Origin: Sneathiellales bacterium
GTDB taxonomy: Bacteria; Pseudomonadota; Alphaproteobacteria; JANQFL01
Direction of reading: 5' to 3'
Assembly (NCBI GenBank): GCA_028277845.1
Contig: JANQFL010000031.1
Coordinates: 1 to 46,738, forward strand
Length of the DNA stretch: 46,738 bases
The notes under the pieces were generated by a model that did not search any database, was not told the DNA's origin, and worked only from the letters and a program-made list of their open reading frames with translations. Shown here one piece after another: positions 18,621 through 40,208 of this stretch (positions are counted from its first letter, which is position 1; each line of letters begins with the position of its first letter). Both the position numbers and the translations under genes were made by a program.

Positions 18621-20216
18621 CTAAGTTGGGTGTTCAGCAACTGTGGCCTTCAACATAGATGTTAAACGTTGTTTGTTCTTTGACGCCCACTTTAAGAACA
18701 GCCCACCCAGTGGCTTATTGAAATGCCGTTTTAACGTGTCGAGCCAGTTTACATACTCGTCGTCTGGAAGACATGATGCGCCCCAAACTAGGTAAGCAAG
18801 CTGAATATCTGGGAAACTGTTAATTGCTGTTTTTTGTTTTCGAAAAAAGTTCTTGTCCTCGCACCGACCACGAATCAATAGCAATTGCCTTTGATCAATC
18901 AGAGCTGGTAAATGCGCCAATCTCTTTAGCTCTCTTGTCGAAATCTCAACAGTTCCACGGACAAAAAGCTCCAACAACCACGTTCGAATTAACTGAACAC
19001 TAGATGCCGGAGGCTGCTCGATTGCTTCAATAATTTCGTCCAACATATCATCGAAACAGCCCGGATCATCATCGTCTAAAGCCTCCATCAATAGACAAAG
19101 CTCTTTGGTAAACACCACCAACTCCGAGAAGTTTTCTTCAATATATTCAACAACTTCTTCCGGTTTCGCAATTTTTAGAGCGCGAAAAATAACTTTGATC
19201 CGCCCCATGTCCCATGTTTCGGCTCCAATTTCATTCTCGAGCAGTTCAACTAAATCTATTCCTTTCAGCTTTTCCATATCTTCTTCATCAGGTTCACCAT
19301 CAGAATAGATGTCTGCTGTGAGTGCATCTAAAGCAATTCCCTCTGCCTCATCTTCAATGTCAGAGATCTGATTGGTTAGCTGCTCTAGATAACTCTCCCG
19401 ACTTGAAATCGAAGTCTTGGCGGCATTCAACGAAAGTCCTTCATTGATACCTAATTGCTCCGCAAGTAGTCCAAGTGAGTCATAAGGGTCATTGGCGCGT
19501 TTTAAAAACAATCGAAAATCATCTACATATCTGGATGCAAGAATCTTGTTGTCTTTCAAAGCCTCGTCAGTATCGATTAAAGCAAGTTCTGCAAGCAGCC
19601 TCGCAGCACTTCCACCAACAGGAAGACCAAACGATTGCTTCGCTCTAATTGTTTTAATGTTCTTCTTGATAAACCTCACTGCACCATGTTTTGGCGCAAC
19701 TTCATCAAGAAGGTTCTCTAAACGGTGAAAGTTTATTCGTGGATAGAAGTCAGATATATCGGTGCTTACCACCACTTTGATCGACGGGCTGTTTTCAATT
19801 ACCGACAATTGTCGGTTGAGCCAATCCTTATACGAACGATCAGCACGAAAAATTTGCCCAGTAAGTTTGTCAACAGAAAACCGGTACGAACAAGTTCTTG
19901 CTAACCTGACTGACTGTCGTTTCGCTTCTATCTTGTCCCCGATCTCTATGACGCAAGCTAATAGCAGCAGAGTATCGAGCGCCGGAAGTTGATGGACAAT
20001 ACGGAAGCCAAACCGACTCTTGGGTGCCAAGGCTTCGATAGCACTTGATGGCGAATAACTATCTAAGTCTAATTCAGATAGATCCGAAACAACCAACTCT
20101 TGTTCTTCGTAAAAGAAATTTATTTCAGGCAGATGTGGAAACACATCAGTATCGCCGTAGCGATAAAGATGTCTTATTGCTAATTCTAATGAACGAGAAG
20201 AAACACGATATGCCAT
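18621..20216 (-). CDS. Stand-alone reverse transcriptase, Abi/UG-like (candidate defence RT)
   Basis: A 531-residue RNA-directed DNA polymerase. The palm motifs are intact: VSTDISDFYP (Asp153), then FGLPVGGSAARLLAEL (197-211) in place of the PQG motif of group II introns, then RYVDDF (Asp232 and Asp233), and LNAAKT (263-268). Residues from about 280 to 531 are acidic and helical, with no endonuclease, maturase or retron VTG signature. This arrangement is that of the abortive-infection and unknown-group RTs, several of which (AbiA, AbiK and the DRT classes) are phage-defence proteins. I cannot place it in a named class. It lies alone in an AT-rich island unlike the GC-rich neighbours, consistent with horizontal acquisition. 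The ATG at 20216 has no clear Shine-Dalgarno site. Confidence 0.85.
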   Translation of the reverse strand: MAYRVSSRSLELAIRHLYRYGDTDVFPHLPEINFFYEEQELVVSDLSELDLDSYSPSSAIEALAPKSRFGFRIVHQLPALDTLLLLACVIEIGDKIEAKRQSVRLARTCSYRFSVDKLTGQIFRADRSYKDWLNRQLSVIENSPSIKVVVSTDISDFYPRINFHRLENLLDEVAPKHGAVRFIKKNIKTIRAKQSFGLPVGGSAARLLAELALIDTDEALKDNKILASRYVDDFRLFLKRANDPYDSLGLLAEQLGINEGLSLNAAKTSISSRESYLEQLTNQISDIEDEAEGIALDALTADIYSDGEPDEEDMEKLKGIDLVELLENEIGAETWDMGRIKVIFRALKIAKPEEVVEYIEENFSELVVFTKELCLLMEALDDDDPGCFDDMLDEIIEAIEQPPASSVQLIRTWLLELFVRGTVEISTRELKRLAHLPALIDQRQLLLIRGRCEDKNFFRKQKTAINSFPDIQLAYLVWGASCLPDDEYVNWLDTLKRHFNKPLGGLFLKWASKNKQRLTSMLKATVAEHPT

Positions 20217-31003: not shown

Positions 31004-31031
31004 AAAAAGGGCCGGAGTTCCGCTCCGGCCC
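31004..31031 (-). terminator. Rho-independent terminator of the repeat-protein gene
   Basis: A perfect nine-pair stem: GGGCCGGAG (31009-31017) and CTCCGGCCC (31023-31031) with a five-base loop. On the minus strand it is followed by TTTTT (complement of 31004-31008), so it terminates the gene that ends at 31039. It may also stop read-through from the decarboxylase-like gene on the other strand. Confidence 0.88.
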
Positions 31032-31038
31032 GTTCCCG

Positions 31039-32949
31039 TTACGCCTGGTAGTCGACGAACGGCCGCTCTATCCCGTGGCCATGATGGTGATATTGGTGGT
31101 ATCGCGCACCGGCTCGGAAAGCGAAGTCCATCAGCATGGCGAAGCGGTCGCGGGATATATAGAACCCGCCCCGGTCGTCATCGCCGTCGCCGCCGAAGCG
31201 TTCGTCGAGGCGCTCCTCGAGGCGTTCCACCTTGCGCTCGACAATGAGATCCTTGATGGCGTCGTAGTCGACGGTGCCGTCGATGCCGACGATGCCCTTG
31301 GCGTCGTCGCCGAACTTGTCGGTCAGCCGTTCCTGCAACGTCTCCAGATCGACCCGGCCCGCTTCGACCCGGCGTTCCAGCCGCTCGACGCGGCGTTCGG
31401 CCTGGGCCTCGAAGCGCTTGGTGCGGTGGGCGACGATCATGTCGCGCAGCAGGTCCTTCTCGACGGAGCCGTCGTCCTCGAAACGGGTGTCGATGCGGTT
31501 CTCCAGCCGCTCGACCATGCTATCGACGATCAGCGACTTGATGCGGTCGGTGTCGATGGTACCGTCGATGCCGACAATACCCTTGGCGTCGTCGCCGAAG
31601 CGTTTGGTCAGCCGCTCCTGCAAATCGGCCAGACCGGCCTTGCCCTCGTCGACCCGCTTTTCGATGCGTTCGACGACGCGGTCGGCGAAGGCCTCGTAAC
31701 GTTCCTTGTGATGGGCGACGATCATGTCGCGCAGCTCGCCACGGCCGACAATATCGTCGTCGGTCCTCGGGGCATCGAGGCGCTCGTTCAGCCGCTCGAT
31801 CATACGGTCGACGATCAGGCCCTTGATGGCGTCGTAATCGACGGTGCCGTCGATACCGACAATCCCGGCGGCATCTTCGCCGAAACGCTTGGTCAGCCGC
31901 TCCTGCAGGTTCTCAAGATCGACCCTGCCGGCCTCGACCCGTTTCTCCAAACGGTCGACGATGCGGTCGGCGATGGCCTCGAACCGCTTGGTGCGATGGC
32001 TGACGATCATGTCGCGCAGCATGTCCATGTCGATGGCGCCGCTATCGTCGAAGCGGGCGTCGAGCCGTTCGTTCAGGCGATCGACGCGGCTTTCCACATA
32101 GAGCGATTTGATGGCGTCATAGTCGATGGTACCGTCGATGCCGACGATGCCGGCGGCATCCTCGCCGAACCGGTCTGTCAGCCGCTCCTGCAGCTTGGCC
32201 AGGTCGATATCGCCGTCCGCGACCCGTTCCTTCAGCCGCTCGATCAGCCGGTCGGCGGTGCTCTCGTATTGCGCGGTTTTTCGCGCGACGATGAAATCGC
32301 GCAACATGTCCAGGTCGATGACGTCGTCGTCCTCGAAATACCTGTCGAGCCGGTTTTCCAGCCGTTCGGTCCGTTGCTCCACCATCAGGGATTTGATGGC
32401 GTCGTAATCGATGGTGCCGTCGATGCCGACGATACCCTTGGCGTCGTCGCCGAATTTGGCGGTCAGGCGTTCCTGCAACTTGGCCAGGTCCACTTGGCCC
32501 GCGTCCACCCGTTCGCGCAACCGGGCGATGCGGCGGTCGGCCATGTCCTCGAACCGTTCGGTGCGTTTGGCGACGATCAGGTCGCGCAGCGCGTCCGTGT
32601 CGATGGTGCCGTCCTCGTCGAGAAGACCCTCGGCGTCGTCGCCGAAACGGGCGACCAGGCGTTCGTGCAGCGAGGCGATACGATCGGTGGTGATGACTTC
32701 GACCAGCTTGTCGAAGTCGACCTTGCCGTCGTCGCCGACAATACCTTCGGCGGCATCGCCGAACCGTTCGATCAATCTCTTTTGCAGATCCGCCACATCG
32801 ACGCGGCCCGATTCCACATCGGATTTCAGATGATCGACCCGGCCTTCGACCAGGTCGCGAATATCCGGCTGTCCCCCCAGCAGACCGCCCAGGCCATGGC
32901 CACCCAATCCCATGGCGTGGCCCGGCATCATTCCAATTCCACCCATCAT
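31039..32949 (-). CDS. Tandem-repeat protein, 95-residue period, EF-hand-like loops
   Basis: A 636-residue acidic, helix-rich protein of no family I know. A Gly/Met/His-rich N-terminus (1-27) precedes a repeat array. The anchor LQERLT..FG(D/E)DA.GIVGIDGT recurs at residues 158, 253, 348, 443 and 538, exactly 95 apart, with weaker forms at 55 and 94. Each unit has two similar halves. One half carries GIDGT(I/V)D, and the other DDGxIDxDxLRDMIVAHRTKRFEA or similar. The DG-x-(I/V)-D cores resemble EF-hand loops that have lost first or last calcium ligands. Charged helices between them should form coiled coils. The C-terminus is His-rich (HQYHHHGHG). No signal peptide or membrane segment is seen. 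GGAGAG upstream and a strong terminator downstream support this strand over the long antisense frame. Confidence 0.82.
   Translation of the reverse strand: MMGGIGMMPGHAMGLGGHGLGGLLGGQPDIRDLVEGRVDHLKSDVESGRVDVADLQKRLIERFGDAAEGIVGDDGKVDFDKLVEVITTDRIASLHERLVARFGDDAEGLLDEDGTIDTDALRDLIVAKRTERFEDMADRRIARLRERVDAGQVDLAKLQERLTAKFGDDAKGIVGIDGTIDYDAIKSLMVEQRTERLENRLDRYFEDDDVIDLDMLRDFIVARKTAQYESTADRLIERLKERVADGDIDLAKLQERLTDRFGEDAAGIVGIDGTIDYDAIKSLYVESRVDRLNERLDARFDDSGAIDMDMLRDMIVSHRTKRFEAIADRIVDRLEKRVEAGRVDLENLQERLTKRFGEDAAGIVGIDGTVDYDAIKGLIVDRMIERLNERLDAPRTDDDIVGRGELRDMIVAHHKERYEAFADRVVERIEKRVDEGKAGLADLQERLTKRFGDDAKGIVGIDGTIDTDRIKSLIVDSMVERLENRIDTRFEDDGSVEKDLLRDMIVAHRTKRFEAQAERRVERLERRVEAGRVDLETLQERLTDKFGDDAKGIVGIDGTVDYDAIKDLIVERKVERLEERLDERFGGDGDDDRGGFYISRDRFAMLMDFAFRAGARYHQYHHHGHGIERPFVDYQA
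31182..32502 (-). repeat. In-frame tandem DNA repeats, about 285 bp period
   Basis: Five successive units inside the repeat-protein gene, set by the residue-158, 253, 348, 443 and 538 anchors. The segment GTCGATG-CCGAC-A, which encodes the GIVGIDGT core, recurs with each unit on the complementary strand. The units differ by scattered substitutions, so the expansion is not brand new, but the period has stayed exact. Recombination between units could change copy number. Confidence 0.75.
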
Positions 32950-33271
32950 GTTTCACTCTCCGTTGGCGCGACCGGGCGGTTCCCGCATGACCGCCCGTCT
33001 TCCCCCTGCAAGCGGCACGCCATTACGGGGCCGAAACTTGCTTAAAGGAATCAATCACTTGCGTTGAGCGGTCGTCGAACCGGCTACGGCACGATCCGCT
33101 CAGGCGGCAAAAAGTACCCGAGGCAAGGTTAATAAGCCGTTTGGGTTAATCCTTGTTCAGCAAGAATCCGGCGGTCTTGATCGAATGTCCGATGTCCGCT
33201 CTCATATCCAGGTTGCCGGGGTTCGATGCCGGATCCCCGGTTGTTGGACGAAGACAGGGAGCATGCGGGAC
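32950..33271. other. Intergenic region, no gene seen
   Basis: This 322 bp stretch contains the upstream region of the repeat protein (minus) and of a basic protein (plus). A short GTTAATAAGCC...GGGTTAATCC stretch near 33130-33155 is AT-richer than its surroundings and is a reasonable place for a promoter. A plus-strand frame is open from 33185 but has no convincing start or composition before 33263. Nothing else is recognisable. Confidence 0.4.
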
Positions 33272-33802
33272 ATGGGACAAACCGGAAAAGGGCGGCTGGA
33301 CCTGGACGGCGCGGTGCGGATCGCCGTCAAGTCCGAGTTGAAAAAGGTCAAGAAACTGAACAAGGCGCGAAGCTCGGTTCCCATCACCGCGTCTTCGCGC
33401 AGGACGTCGCAGATGAACACGCCGGACGCTCCCGTGGCTCTGCCCGACCGGTCTCCGGCGGCGCGCAGCCTGAAGCGTTCGGGCAAGCGTCTCGAGAAAG
33501 TCCGCCGGAAGGCGGCCAGGTCTTCCGTGCCATCCGTCGCCTACAGCCCGGGATCCAAAGTGACCGCCGTGGCAAAACGAAGAACCAAGCCGTCTCCCTG
33601 GATCCGGTCCGTCAAGAAAACCGCACCGGCCAAATCCGCGGCCGGTCCGGCGGCAAACAACGAACGCCCGTCATCCGATCCGTCTGCATCCGGCACACAC
33701 CAAAATACGGCGACCTCCGATCCGGGGTCCGACCTCAAGGACAGGCTGAAGAAGCAATACCTGAAAAGCCGGCGCGATTCATGGAAGAGATACGTGCGCT
33801 AA
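33272..33802 (+). CDS. Basic low-complexity hypothetical protein
   Basis: A 176-residue, strongly basic protein rich in Lys, Arg, Ser, Pro and Ala (for example KSELKKVKKLNKARSS and RSLKRSGKRLEKVRRKAARS). It ends in a helical basic tail (DLKDRLKKQYLKSRRDSWKR). Codon third positions are GC-rich as in the neighbouring genes, which supports coding. AGGGAG lies about 10 bases before ATG 33272 and too close to an alternative ATG at 33263. It recalls nucleoid-associated or histone H1-like tails, but that is resemblance of composition only. No family recognised. Confidence 0.5.
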   Translation: MGQTGKGRLDLDGAVRIAVKSELKKVKKLNKARSSVPITASSRRTSQMNTPDAPVALPDRSPAARSLKRSGKRLEKVRRKAARSSVPSVAYSPGSKVTAVAKRRTKPSPWIRSVKKTAPAKSAAGPAANNERPSSDPSASGTHQNTATSDPGSDLKDRLKKQYLKSRRDSWKRYVR

Positions 33803-34125: not shown

Positions 34126-35070
34126 TCAAGTCACGTCGTCGGCGGCCACGCTGTCCCGGTGACCACGCCAGCTCTGTGCCTCGATGAAGACGCGTGTGAC
34201 TTCCGGGTGTGCGCCTTTGATGCCCGCCTCCAGTTCGCTGATGGCGGCCTCGACATCGGATGACGACAGCGAATCGGAGAAATCCACGCTGAGATTGACC
34301 AGCACGTCCTGCGGGCCGAAATGCAGCGTCAGAAGCTCGTTGGTCAGAATGATCCCGGGGCGGTCGTCCATCAGCTTGCGGATACCGGCGACGACTTCGG
34401 GCGACGCCGCCTCGCCGATCAGCAGTCCCTTGGTTTCGTAGGCCAGCAACGCCGCCGTCAACGCCAGGATGACGCCGATGACGATGGAAGCCAGCCCGTC
34501 GAATTCCGGAATGCCCCAATACTGCCCGGCGGCGATGCCGGCAAAGGCAACGATCAGGCCGAGCATGGCGGCGCTGTCCTCGAACAGGACCGTAAAGACC
34601 GTGGGGTCCTTGCTGCGCCGCACCTCCTCCATGAAACCGCGCTTACCCTTGATGCGGCCGAATTCCTTGAAGGCGATCCACCAGGCCACGCCCTCGAAGA
34701 TCATGGCCGCACCCAGCACCACATAGTTGATGATCGGGTTGGTCACGGGATGGGGATGCTGCAACTTGGAGATGCCTTCATAGATGGCAATACCGCCGCC
34801 ACCGGCGAAGATCAGGATGGCGACGATGAACGACCAGAAGTAGAGCTCGCGGCCATGGCCGAAGGGGTGCACGGCGTCGGCCGGTTTCTTGGCCTGGCGA
34901 ATACCGTACAGGATCAATCCCTGATTGCCCGTATCGACCACCGAGTGGATGGCCTCGCTGAGCATGGCCGAACTGCCGGTATAGGCGGCGGCGAAGAACT
35001 TGGTGATGGCGATTAATCCGTTGCCGGCGAGCGCGGCATAGATCACCTTCTTGGAAGAGGCACTGGCCAT
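34126..35070 (-). CDS. Cation diffusion facilitator transporter
   Basis: A 314-residue CDF-family metal exporter with six membrane helices and a C-terminal cytoplasmic domain. The first metal site lies in SEAIHSVVDTGNQ and the second helix pair carries LFEDSAAMLGL; both Asp residues needed for divalent cation transport are present. The GFGHGRELYFWS-like loop (HPFGHGRELYFWS) is typical of the group near eukaryotic SLC30A9. The metal (Zn, Mn, Fe or Co) cannot be told. It follows the YihY-family gene by 27 bp, so the two are probably co-transcribed. Confidence 0.9.
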   Translation of the reverse strand: MASASSKKVIYAALAGNGLIAITKFFAAAYTGSSAMLSEAIHSVVDTGNQGLILYGIRQAKKPADAVHPFGHGRELYFWSFIVAILIFAGGGGIAIYEGISKLQHPHPVTNPIINYVVLGAAMIFEGVAWWIAFKEFGRIKGKRGFMEEVRRSKDPTVFTVLFEDSAAMLGLIVAFAGIAAGQYWGIPEFDGLASIVIGVILALTAALLAYETKGLLIGEAASPEVVAGIRKLMDDRPGIILTNELLTLHFGPQDVLVNLSVDFSDSLSSSDVEAAISELEAGIKGAHPEVTRVFIEAQSWRGHRDSVAADDVT

Positions 35071-35097: not shown

Positions 35098-36483
35098 TTA
35101 CGATTGGACGGCGGATTCGTGCTTCGGCGTCAACGGTGTGACCGTCCCGGATTCGGACAAGGACAGATCCTTGAGGGTGGTGGAGCCGACGACCCGGTCG
35201 GCGGCGTCCTCGGCCGCCTCCATCAACGACGCCACGGCATTGTCCTCGGGCAGATGTTCGACGTGAACGCCATCTTGCTCCCCGGCGGTCCGCACGGCGG
35301 CGAGCACGTCGGAGACGGTGGTGGTGTCCAGCGGTTTGGCCGGCAGATAGCCGCTGCGTTCCACGCGCATGGGCGCCACCAATCCGGCCTGCTCGAGCGC
35401 CAGCATGACTTCATGCACCGGCTCGGCCGGCACGCGCAGCCGTTCGGCCAGGGCATCGGGTGTCCATCCCGGCCGGTTTTCGTACATGTGGCGGCCGATC
35501 AGCACGGCGATCTGCAGTGCCAGATGTTCCTTGACCCGGCCGCTGAGCTGGATGTTGCGCCGCTCCGCCGTTCGATAGGCCGGATTCTGGTGATAGAAGG
35601 CGATGGACGAGCCAACCAGCAGGATGACCCAGCCGACATAGAGCCAGATCATGAACAGCACCAGGGTGGCGAAAGCGGAATAGATCGCCGTGTACTGGGC
35701 CGACCCGACGATGAAGGACGCGAATGCCCAGCCCACAACCTGCCACAACACGCCGGCGACGGTGCCGCCGATCAGCGCCGAAGTCAGCCGCACCTTGGTG
35801 TTGGGAATGAAGATATAGATGAAGGTGAAGGCCAGGATGATCATCAGGAACGGCACCGATTTGCCGGCGAACGAGACCATCACACCGACGGTTTCGAACT
35901 CGGTCAGTTTGGCGACGACCCAGTTGGAGCGCACCGAGGCACCGACGCCAATGGCCGAAAACATCAAGACCGGACCGATCAGGATGACAGAGAGATAATC
36001 GCTAAAGCGCTGCATGAACGGCCGCGGCCGCTCGATGCGCCAGGTGTAGTTGAAGGCCCGTTCAATCTTCAGGATCAGCGTCACCACGGTGTAGATGAGG
36101 AAGACCAGGCCGATCGATCCGAGCACGCCCACCTTCATATTGTCGACGAAGCCGATAACCTGTTCGGTGATCTCGATGCCCTTCTCGCCCAGGGGCTCGA
36201 GGATTTGCAGCATGAAGGGTTCGATCTGGTTGTGCACGCCGAAGGCCTTGAGCACCGAGAAGCTGATGGCCAGAAGCGGCACCATGGACAGCAGCGTGGT
36301 ATAGACCAGGCTCATGGCCCGTAGATTCAACTGCCCGCCCCAAATGTCGCGGACGAGGATATAGACAAAGCGGATGCCGTGCACGAAACCCGCCTGCCAT
36401 TTCGGCATAGAGGCCGGATCCGCACGCCATAGGAACGCATAGGCCGCGTCCCAGTAGTGTCTCCAGTCCTTGGTCATGGTCAT
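35098..36483 (-). CDS. YihY/BrkB-family membrane protein with C-terminal winged helix
   Basis: A 461-residue protein. Residues about 45-310 form the six-helix YihY (formerly RNase BN) membrane domain, with the family stretches SLVYTTLLSMVPLLAISFSV and RIERPRPFMQRFSDYLSVIL. A cytoplasmic region from about 325 resembles a winged helix-turn-helix (GWTPDALAERLRVPAEPVHEVMLALEQAGLV), seen in a subset of the family. A flexible tail follows. Function in the family is unsettled; transport or a sensing role has been suggested. It is the first gene of the pair with the CDF transporter and is divergent from the DUF4336 gene. Confidence 0.88.
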   Translation of the reverse strand: MTMTKDWRHYWDAAYAFLWRADPASMPKWQAGFVHGIRFVYILVRDIWGGQLNLRAMSLVYTTLLSMVPLLAISFSVLKAFGVHNQIEPFMLQILEPLGEKGIEITEQVIGFVDNMKVGVLGSIGLVFLIYTVVTLILKIERAFNYTWRIERPRPFMQRFSDYLSVILIGPVLMFSAIGVGASVRSNWVVAKLTEFETVGVMVSFAGKSVPFLMIILAFTFIYIFIPNTKVRLTSALIGGTVAGVLWQVVGWAFASFIVGSAQYTAIYSAFATLVLFMIWLYVGWVILLVGSSIAFYHQNPAYRTAERRNIQLSGRVKEHLALQIAVLIGRHMYENRPGWTPDALAERLRVPAEPVHEVMLALEQAGLVAPMRVERSGYLPAKPLDTTTVSDVLAAVRTAGEQDGVHVEHLPEDNAVASLMEAAEDAADRVVGSTTLKDLSLSESGTVTPLTPKHESAVQS

Positions 36484-38579: not shown

Positions 38580-40208
38580 ATGGGAAAGGTTGGCAGAAAC
38601 GCTCCTTGTCCTTGTAGGAGTGGCAAGAAATATAAGAAGTGTTGTGGCGATCCGCTTAAACCTTCTCCATCGTCTGCACGCGAGAATTTTCAAAAACAAT
38701 ATGATTCACTACATCGCAAGCTGGAATCTGACGAGAAGATTCGTGAGCTGCAACAAGGGCGCGGACGTCCAATCATTTCCACAAATTTCCGCGACTACAC
38801 TGTCGTCGCCAGCGGAAATACAGTCTATTTCTCGAAAAACTGGAAAACCTTCTCCGACTTTTTGATGGACTACATCAAAATCACTCTCGGTGAAGATTGG
38901 GGAAATTCCGAAATTGCCAAGCCGTGGGAAGAAAGGCATCCAATACTACATTGGTATGACGCTCATTGCCGATATTTAGTGACCAATCAGAAAACGAAAG
39001 GAGAAGTATTTTCAGCAACGGCAACTGGAGCTGTAAATTGTTATTTAGGGCTCGCTTACAGTCTTTATCTCGTCAAACATAATGTTGAACTTCAGGAGCG
39101 TTTGGTTGCACGCCTAAAAGACATCCAACAGTTTCAAGGTGCCTACTACGAACTAATGGTAGCCAACTGCCTGATAAGGTCTGGATTTGAACTCGAACTA
39201 GAGGATGAAACCGACTTAGAATCGAAGCATTGCGAGTTTTCTGCGCGTTCAAAACAAACCCGAAAACGCTATTGGATAGAAGCAAAGATGCGCAGTGAAG
39301 TGAATATCTTAGGTAAGACCAAGGAAGACGGATCAACTTCAAAAGACGTAACTTCACAACTTACCAAACATCTTCGCGAAGCATTAAGAAAGCCCGCAAA
39401 AGACGAACGAATGATTTTCATAGATCTCAACGCTGAGCCTAATAACCAAAGCGATTCACCCAAATGGCTAGATAAAGCCGTTAGACGTCTTGATGCTCGC
39501 GAAAGAGATCTTGTGGATGGCGAACAGGCATACGTTTTCGTAACAAATATGGCTTTTCACCGTGAACTGGAGAACACCGAGCAACGTCGAGAAGTTTTGG
39601 CCTACGGCCTAGGCATTCCAGACTTCAGCAAACCGGGCAATATCAGATTCTCGGACTGGTATAGGAACAAACAGAAACACATCGATGCTTATGATGTTAT
39701 GGACGGGCTACGGTCATATCCACAGATACCGGATACTTTTGACGGCCAACCATCATCAGAAGCATACGGTGATTCGCAAAATAAGCGTTTGATTGTGGGG
39801 AAGACCTATTTCTTCGAAGACATCGGTGATGGAGGTGTCACAGGTATGATCTCATCGGTGGGTGTCGATCCCCCTGAAAAACTCGCATATGTTGGTGTAT
39901 CTACGACGGACGGAAAAAATATTATTATTACAAGCCAGCTCTCGGATATTGAACTCGAAGACTACAAGAAATATGGAGATGCATATTTTGGGGAGCCAGA
40001 ACCTGTTAGCAGTAAGGCAAAAGATGATACTGAGCTTTACGAATGGCTAGTTGACATACATATGAAGTATCCAAGAGAGAACTTGTTAAAACAAGCAAGA
40101 AACCATCCAGATTTGGAACGACTACGGCAATTGAATCATGAGGATTTTGTACTGGAATTTTGCGAAACAATGCTAGGTTCAATTCAGTCTAGTCGGAGTA
40201 AAAAGTAG
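38580..40208 (+). CDS. SEC-C motif protein with PD-(D/E)XK nuclease-like core
   Basis: A 542-residue protein from an AT-rich island. Residues 6-23 form a SEC-C zinc motif (CPCRSGKKYKKCCG). A central segment resembles a PD-(D/E)XK nuclease: Glu191 in the helix GAYYELMVANCLIRSGF, an acidic residue Glu219 in KHCEFSAR, and the catalytic-type Glu234-Ala-Lys236 in YWIEAKMR. The C-terminal third (LIVGKTYFFEDIGDGGVTG and YEWLVDIHMKYPRENLLKQ) has no recognised domain. Fold assignment is by motif spacing only. SEC-C modules occur on several stress and defence proteins. The gene stands alone, and no ribosome site is obvious before the ATG. Confidence 0.75.
   Translation: MGKVGRNAPCPCRSGKKYKKCCGDPLKPSPSSARENFQKQYDSLHRKLESDEKIRELQQGRGRPIISTNFRDYTVVASGNTVYFSKNWKTFSDFLMDYIKITLGEDWGNSEIAKPWEERHPILHWYDAHCRYLVTNQKTKGEVFSATATGAVNCYLGLAYSLYLVKHNVELQERLVARLKDIQQFQGAYYELMVANCLIRSGFELELEDETDLESKHCEFSARSKQTRKRYWIEAKMRSEVNILGKTKEDGSTSKDVTSQLTKHLREALRKPAKDERMIFIDLNAEPNNQSDSPKWLDKAVRRLDARERDLVDGEQAYVFVTNMAFHRELENTEQRREVLAYGLGIPDFSKPGNIRFSDWYRNKQKHIDAYDVMDGLRSYPQIPDTFDGQPSSEAYGDSQNKRLIVGKTYFFEDIGDGGVTGMISSVGVDPPEKLAYVGVSTTDGKNIIITSQLSDIELEDYKKYGDAYFGEPEPVSSKAKDDTELYEWLVDIHMKYPRENLLKQARNHPDLERLRQLNHEDFVLEFCETMLGSIQSSRSKK

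Follow-up and report, generated by a model that had tools for sequence, protein, structure and literature searches.

A minus-strand gene of a Sneathiellales bacterium encodes a predicted all-helical repeat protein whose sequence unit is absent from the family libraries searched

The open reading frame at 31039-32949 on the minus strand of the window (the whole 46,738-nucleotide stretch analysed here) is a real gene, whose repeats are maintained as protein under purifying selection. Proteins built from tandem helical repeats are well known as a kind; the sequence unit repeated here is absent from every library tested. We tentatively describe the product as a soluble, cytoplasmic scaffold, an acidic rod of helices whose ends are flexible, an assignment to which we give close to an even chance. 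Its helices and turns are predicted; its location, rod shape and scaffold role we infer. The gene and its flanking signals are:

31039-32949, minus strand: repeat-protein gene, 636 aa, about 72 kDa, pI 4.8, without Cys or Trp
32956-32961, minus strand: Shine-Dalgarno-like GGAGAG, 6 nt 5' of the ATG, read from the sequence
31009-31031, minus strand: intrinsic terminator, a 9-bp stem followed by TTTTTCATT, beginning 8 bases past the stop codon

As both strands are open, the coding strand was put to the test; the plus strand over the gene carries an antisense ORF of 711 aa. Comparison of unit with unit gave dN/dS values of 0.24-0.68 in the minus frame versus 1.07-1.55 in the open antisense frame, and differences between units are concentrated at the third codon positions of the minus frame (235 versus 143 and 132). 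Codon log-odds, trained on eight confident neighbour genes, were highest of the six frames in the minus frame (0.48 versus 0.23). The minus strand is assigned as coding because of this codon score and substitution pattern. It is highly improbable that the frame is open through GC-rich codon structure, with the 711-aa antisense ORF as the real gene or neither, since openness of both strands along the entire length fits such a reading but dN/dS, codon score, ribosome-binding site and terminator favour the minus strand and largely refute it.

The anchor LQ[EK]RL..[KR]FG[DE] is found at residues 55, 158, 253, 348, 443 and 538. A sequence-only reading of this DNA had reported five anchors at unchanged spacing; those from 158 to 538 are indeed exactly spaced, but a sixth lies at residue 55, unit 1 spans 103 aa, and the 95-residue period holds from residue 158 only. 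Self-identity at a lag of 95 residues is 46.6%, compared to a maximum of 12.4% in 2000 whole-protein shuffles. Independently, Tandem Repeats Finder reported an array at 31252-32621 with a period of 285 bp and 4.8 copies. Units 2-5 are mutually 56-72% identical as protein and 65-76% as DNA. On the minus strand, the parts of the protein are:

32863-32949 (residues 1-29): head, Gly/Met/His-rich, predicted disordered (pLDDT <50), 28 residues containing 12 Gly, five Met and two His
32479-32787 (residues 55-157): unit 1, 103 aa, both halves complete
32194-32478 (residues 158-252): unit 2, 95 aa
31909-32193 (residues 253-347): unit 3, 95 aa
31624-31908 (residues 348-442): unit 4, 95 aa, second half most diverged
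31339-31623 (residues 443-537): unit 5, 95 aa
31195-31338 (residues 538-585): unit 6, first half only
31042-31194 (residues 586-636): tail, low-confidence, a weakly predicted helix and YHQYHHHGHG, with five His among the final 20 residues

Each unit had been described as two related halves. This is clear for unit 1, whose second half (residues 94-132) scored 57 bits against the first-half profile, ungapped and with 17 of 39 residues identical; in units 2-5 the second halves are eight residues shorter and rise little or not at all above shuffle level. Unit 1, which keeps the eight residues absent elsewhere, would thus reveal the ancestral module, about 45 residues long. The simplest history, as judged from these alignments, is that the module was duplicated to a double module, which was then repeated. 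The alternative, that only unit 1 gained eight residues by insertion, leaves unexplained how these come to restore the motif of the module. With its eight residues lost later in the other units, unit 1 would provide a clear record of helical repeat growth from a small duplicated module.

Structure prediction with AF2 from the whole single sequence gave pLDDT values mostly of 80-88 in the repeats, with residues 1-28 and 586-636 disordered; a two-unit model, for which shifted copies served as alignment, reached a mean pLDDT of 85. The arrangement of the units, and hence the rod, is not established, because pTM is 0.31 for the whole protein and 0.57 for two units. Helices are predicted throughout the repeats, in line with the regular all-helical repeat protein expected from the letters. 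Both models place three helices of about 16, 24 and 32 aa in each unit, their boundaries agreeing within a few residues, and the helical pairs suggested earlier are not supported. A G/D-x-(I/V)-D turn (AGRVD, GIVGIDGTID or DDxxID) precedes nearly every modelled helix, so that three such helix caps take the place of the two DG-x-(I/V)-D cores formerly counted per unit. In the two-unit model a V17-I23 bridge (unit numbering) lies inside one long loop. All three helix classes are amphipathic beyond the 99% shuffle level. Their hydrophobic periodicity peaks at 93, 87 and 92 degrees, with a resolution restricted by the short helices, versus about 103 degrees for a heptad, which speaks against a canonical left-handed coiled-coil rod; coiled-coil rod geometry had been proposed as a check. 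In a fold search against PDB and viral folds, the best Z values were 6.5 and 6.1 for the two models and Foldseek E values were at least 0.11; these fall within the tool's background range and are generic helical matches.

Taken together, we propose that duplication of the module LxxRLxxRFGDDAxGIVxxDGTIDxDxIKxLIVxxR (about 45 residues) was followed by sixfold repetition of the resulting double module of 95-103 residues, which would give an all-helical rod of solenoid-like build, stiff and acidic. Each unit would consist of three helices (about 16, 24 and 32 aa), every one begun by a G/D-x-(I/V)-D turn. Rather than binding calcium, the DG-x-(I/V)-D motifs would cap helices and form turns, and the long loop would contain a local V-I bridge. 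Such a rod would most likely be a spacer or scaffold, with its charged faces, its flexible Gly/Met/His head and its His-rich tail used for presenting or docking something. By composition count the protein has no Cys, four Pro and a net charge of about -42, and a soluble cytoplasmic rod fits because of these values. No homologous scaffold or solved fold backing the rod was found in the fold searches.

The His-containing, floppy ends might also bind metal, and the main rival to the scaffold rod is a metal-buffering or metal-responsive protein, in which copper, nickel or zinc would be bound by the Met/His head and the YHQYHHHGHG tail, the acidic repeats would act as carrier or additional weak sites and a cation diffusion facilitator (CDF) transporter would be a partner. 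The Met and His residues of the head and the His residues of the tail favour this reading, as does, suggestively only, a same-strand neighbour:

34126-35070, minus strand: CDF transporter gene, lying upstream at a distance of about 1.2 kb from the repeat gene

At that distance nothing points to a shared operon, however, and no repeat ORF was found in the flanks of the 14 closest CDF homologues retrieved; a search of the two small orders to which the nearest of these homologues belong gave nothing either. The protein moreover lacks Cys and matches no known metal-protein family, and we regard a metal function of this kind as unlikely. For the scaffold rod, the neighbours (sarcosine oxidase genes, a class III aminotransferase, the CDF transporter and a BrkB-like gene) provide no functional link. 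The BrkB/YihY membrane protein at 35098-36483 (minus strand) has a C-terminal stretch that is Rrf2-like above the Pfam cutoff, an apparent fusion. Upstream, a 205-aa Lys/Arg-rich ORF at 33185-33802 (plus strand) was considered as a basic partner and set aside; with a non-coding codon score and no family match, it is probably not a gene. Elsewhere in the window, 18621-20216 (minus strand) encodes a 531-aa reverse transcriptase that matches PADLOC Drt8 nearly end to end (E 4.1e-140). Because it lies in a low-GC island (GC 0.475, GC3 0.39), it is probably a horizontally acquired DRT8-type phage-defence gene. A second low-GC island (GC 0.46) at 38580-40208 (plus strand) encodes a 542-aa protein with an N-terminal SEC-C motif as its only match; defence models did not match it.

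Whole-protein scans of genome contigs, viral contigs, plasmids and phages, as well as scans of genome and viral contigs with a two-unit alignment, revealed no relative; both depend on short peptide patterns that match almost exactly, so that distant relatives escape them. A unit profile run over 385 genomes of the same class found the protein's own genome only. With a module profile, strong matches in 385 class and 398 phylum genomes sampled were restricted to the own genome and to one genome (G049) of another order of the same class, each being the sole sampled genome of its order. Homologues restricted to one clade had been named in the sequence-only reading as support for its proposal; in the genomes sampled, the strong module matches fall within a single class, in two genomes that each stand alone for an order. 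Seven other module-profile matches (E 0.002-0.008) are chance-like and were discarded; one examined sits on a phasin-like ORF. A first weak match in G049 (E 8.6e-4) led to four Ser/Thr/Pro-rich module proteins on three contigs, with one or two module copies each:

contig L002, 1168-1830 and 2009-2524: two module proteins
contig L025, 201-1007: one module protein
contig L027, 1291-1779: one module protein

None of the four has a convincing family match. A profile of the six G049 modules matched the repeat protein with E 2.9e-32 over seven domains (best domain 23 bits), and 4000 shuffled proteins reached at most 12.7 bits. The reverse search recovered three of the four. As the scores far exceed those of the shuffles, the similarity is statistically real; common descent is likely, although so short a module does not prove it. 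Both sides share xxDxxxLxxFxxxFGxDA-xxIxxxDGxIDxxxxK, with a one-residue gap after FGxDA, and two of the four G049 proteins contain it twice. Unlike the repeat protein, they are short, have disordered linkers and lack the 95-residue unit and the long second helix.

By analogy with these Ser/Pro-rich small proteins, the repeat protein could be secreted or surface-exposed. The G049 proteins have low-complexity Ser/Thr/Pro segments like those of exported proteins, and one of them is weakly XopAW-like, far below cutoff (NF041410, 25.3 bits versus 120); XopAW is not among the NCBIfam matches of the repeat protein itself. As the latter shares the module with the G049 proteins but not their Ser/Pro segments, and as inspection by eye shows neither a signal peptide nor a membrane segment in it, we consider export distinctly improbable.

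About as improbable is a calcium-binding repeat protein, in which degenerate EF-hands would bind calcium via the acidic clusters of DG-x-(I/V)-D and switch the stiffness of the rod. The 12-residue loop of an EF-hand carries oxygen ligands at positions 1, 3 and 5 and Glu or Asp at position 12. With Gly placed at position 6, position 1 of the seven module loops is I or L, positions 5 and 9 are D and position 12 is A, K or R; position 3 is G except in the loop at residue 109, where it is Asp and thus acidic. The repeat protein contains no canonical EF-hand loop pattern and matches no EF-hand Pfam model at E up to 10, and isolated modules match none either. The doubt about calcium binding voiced in the earlier reading is upheld, and EF-hand calcium binding by the module loops is not supported by their sequence. 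What favours the calcium reading is that the module profile matches troponin C site IV over profile positions 27-41 (E 0.003-0.06), that most loops of the G049 relatives have Asp or Asn at position 3, and that some rows of the two-unit-model fold search are EF-hand proteins (3hzt, Z 5.5, rmsd 4.5, 87 residues aligned); however, these rows, obtained with a model of pTM 0.57, have Z values of at most 5.5, within the tool's stated background range. Because the troponin C resemblance is restricted to the latter half of the loop together with the helix that leaves it, it may be either a remnant or the outcome of convergent evolution towards a good helix cap. The repeat protein also cautions that DG-x-I-D motifs need not imply calcium.

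Turning to known systems, no convincing match to the repeat protein was obtained in Pfam, NCBIfam, PHROG, PADLOC, PDB sequences or PDB folds, and it matched no enzyme family in the family libraries searched. Scattered matches of 20-27 bits in PADLOC, PHROG and NCBIfam fall on unrelated families and are attributed to charged-helical composition. No description of a 95-residue repeat like this one was found in a literature search, and the view that the protein stands outside known families is upheld for every library searched. Because no library model covers the protein and the module recurs in unrelated-looking proteins of another order, we regard it as a candidate new Pfam-type family that merits a family entry, its mechanism not yet being surprising. 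It is possible, albeit doubtful, that this unnamed repeat family is founded on a module, about 45 residues long, that has half an EF-hand as its relative or ancestor, lost calcium binding and became a purely structural, duplicable block, single or paired in the small Ser/Pro-rich proteins of one lineage and built into a six-unit rod in another.

Among the systems compared, SHOCT (PF09851) is a short, mostly C-terminal domain and not a tandem unit (PMC3581485), and the repeat protein scores 13.6 bits against its cutoff of 27. Spectrin-like and other helical-repeat rods resemble the repeat protein in stringing together units of about 100 residues, each with three helices (predicted here), but neither PF24915 (E 0.42) nor the fold 3kbu (Z 4.6, rmsd 18.6) is beyond background. 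With the EF-hand (PF00036 and relatives) the module has in common the latter part of the loop, DG-x-I-D-Y-D, and the hydrophobic helix that comes after it; it differs in lacking the ligands at positions 1 and 12, and at position 3 in all but one loop, and in a bridge that is predicted within the single loop of a unit instead of between two loops. For DUF1707 (PF08044) the best match of the repeat protein, 22.8 bits, is below the gathering score of 27.6; the helix-Gly-x-hydrophobic-Asp-helix hairpin RLxERVxAGRVDLxxLQERL aligns in the same register in three of three hairpins tested (14.4-18.8 bits, likewise below that score).
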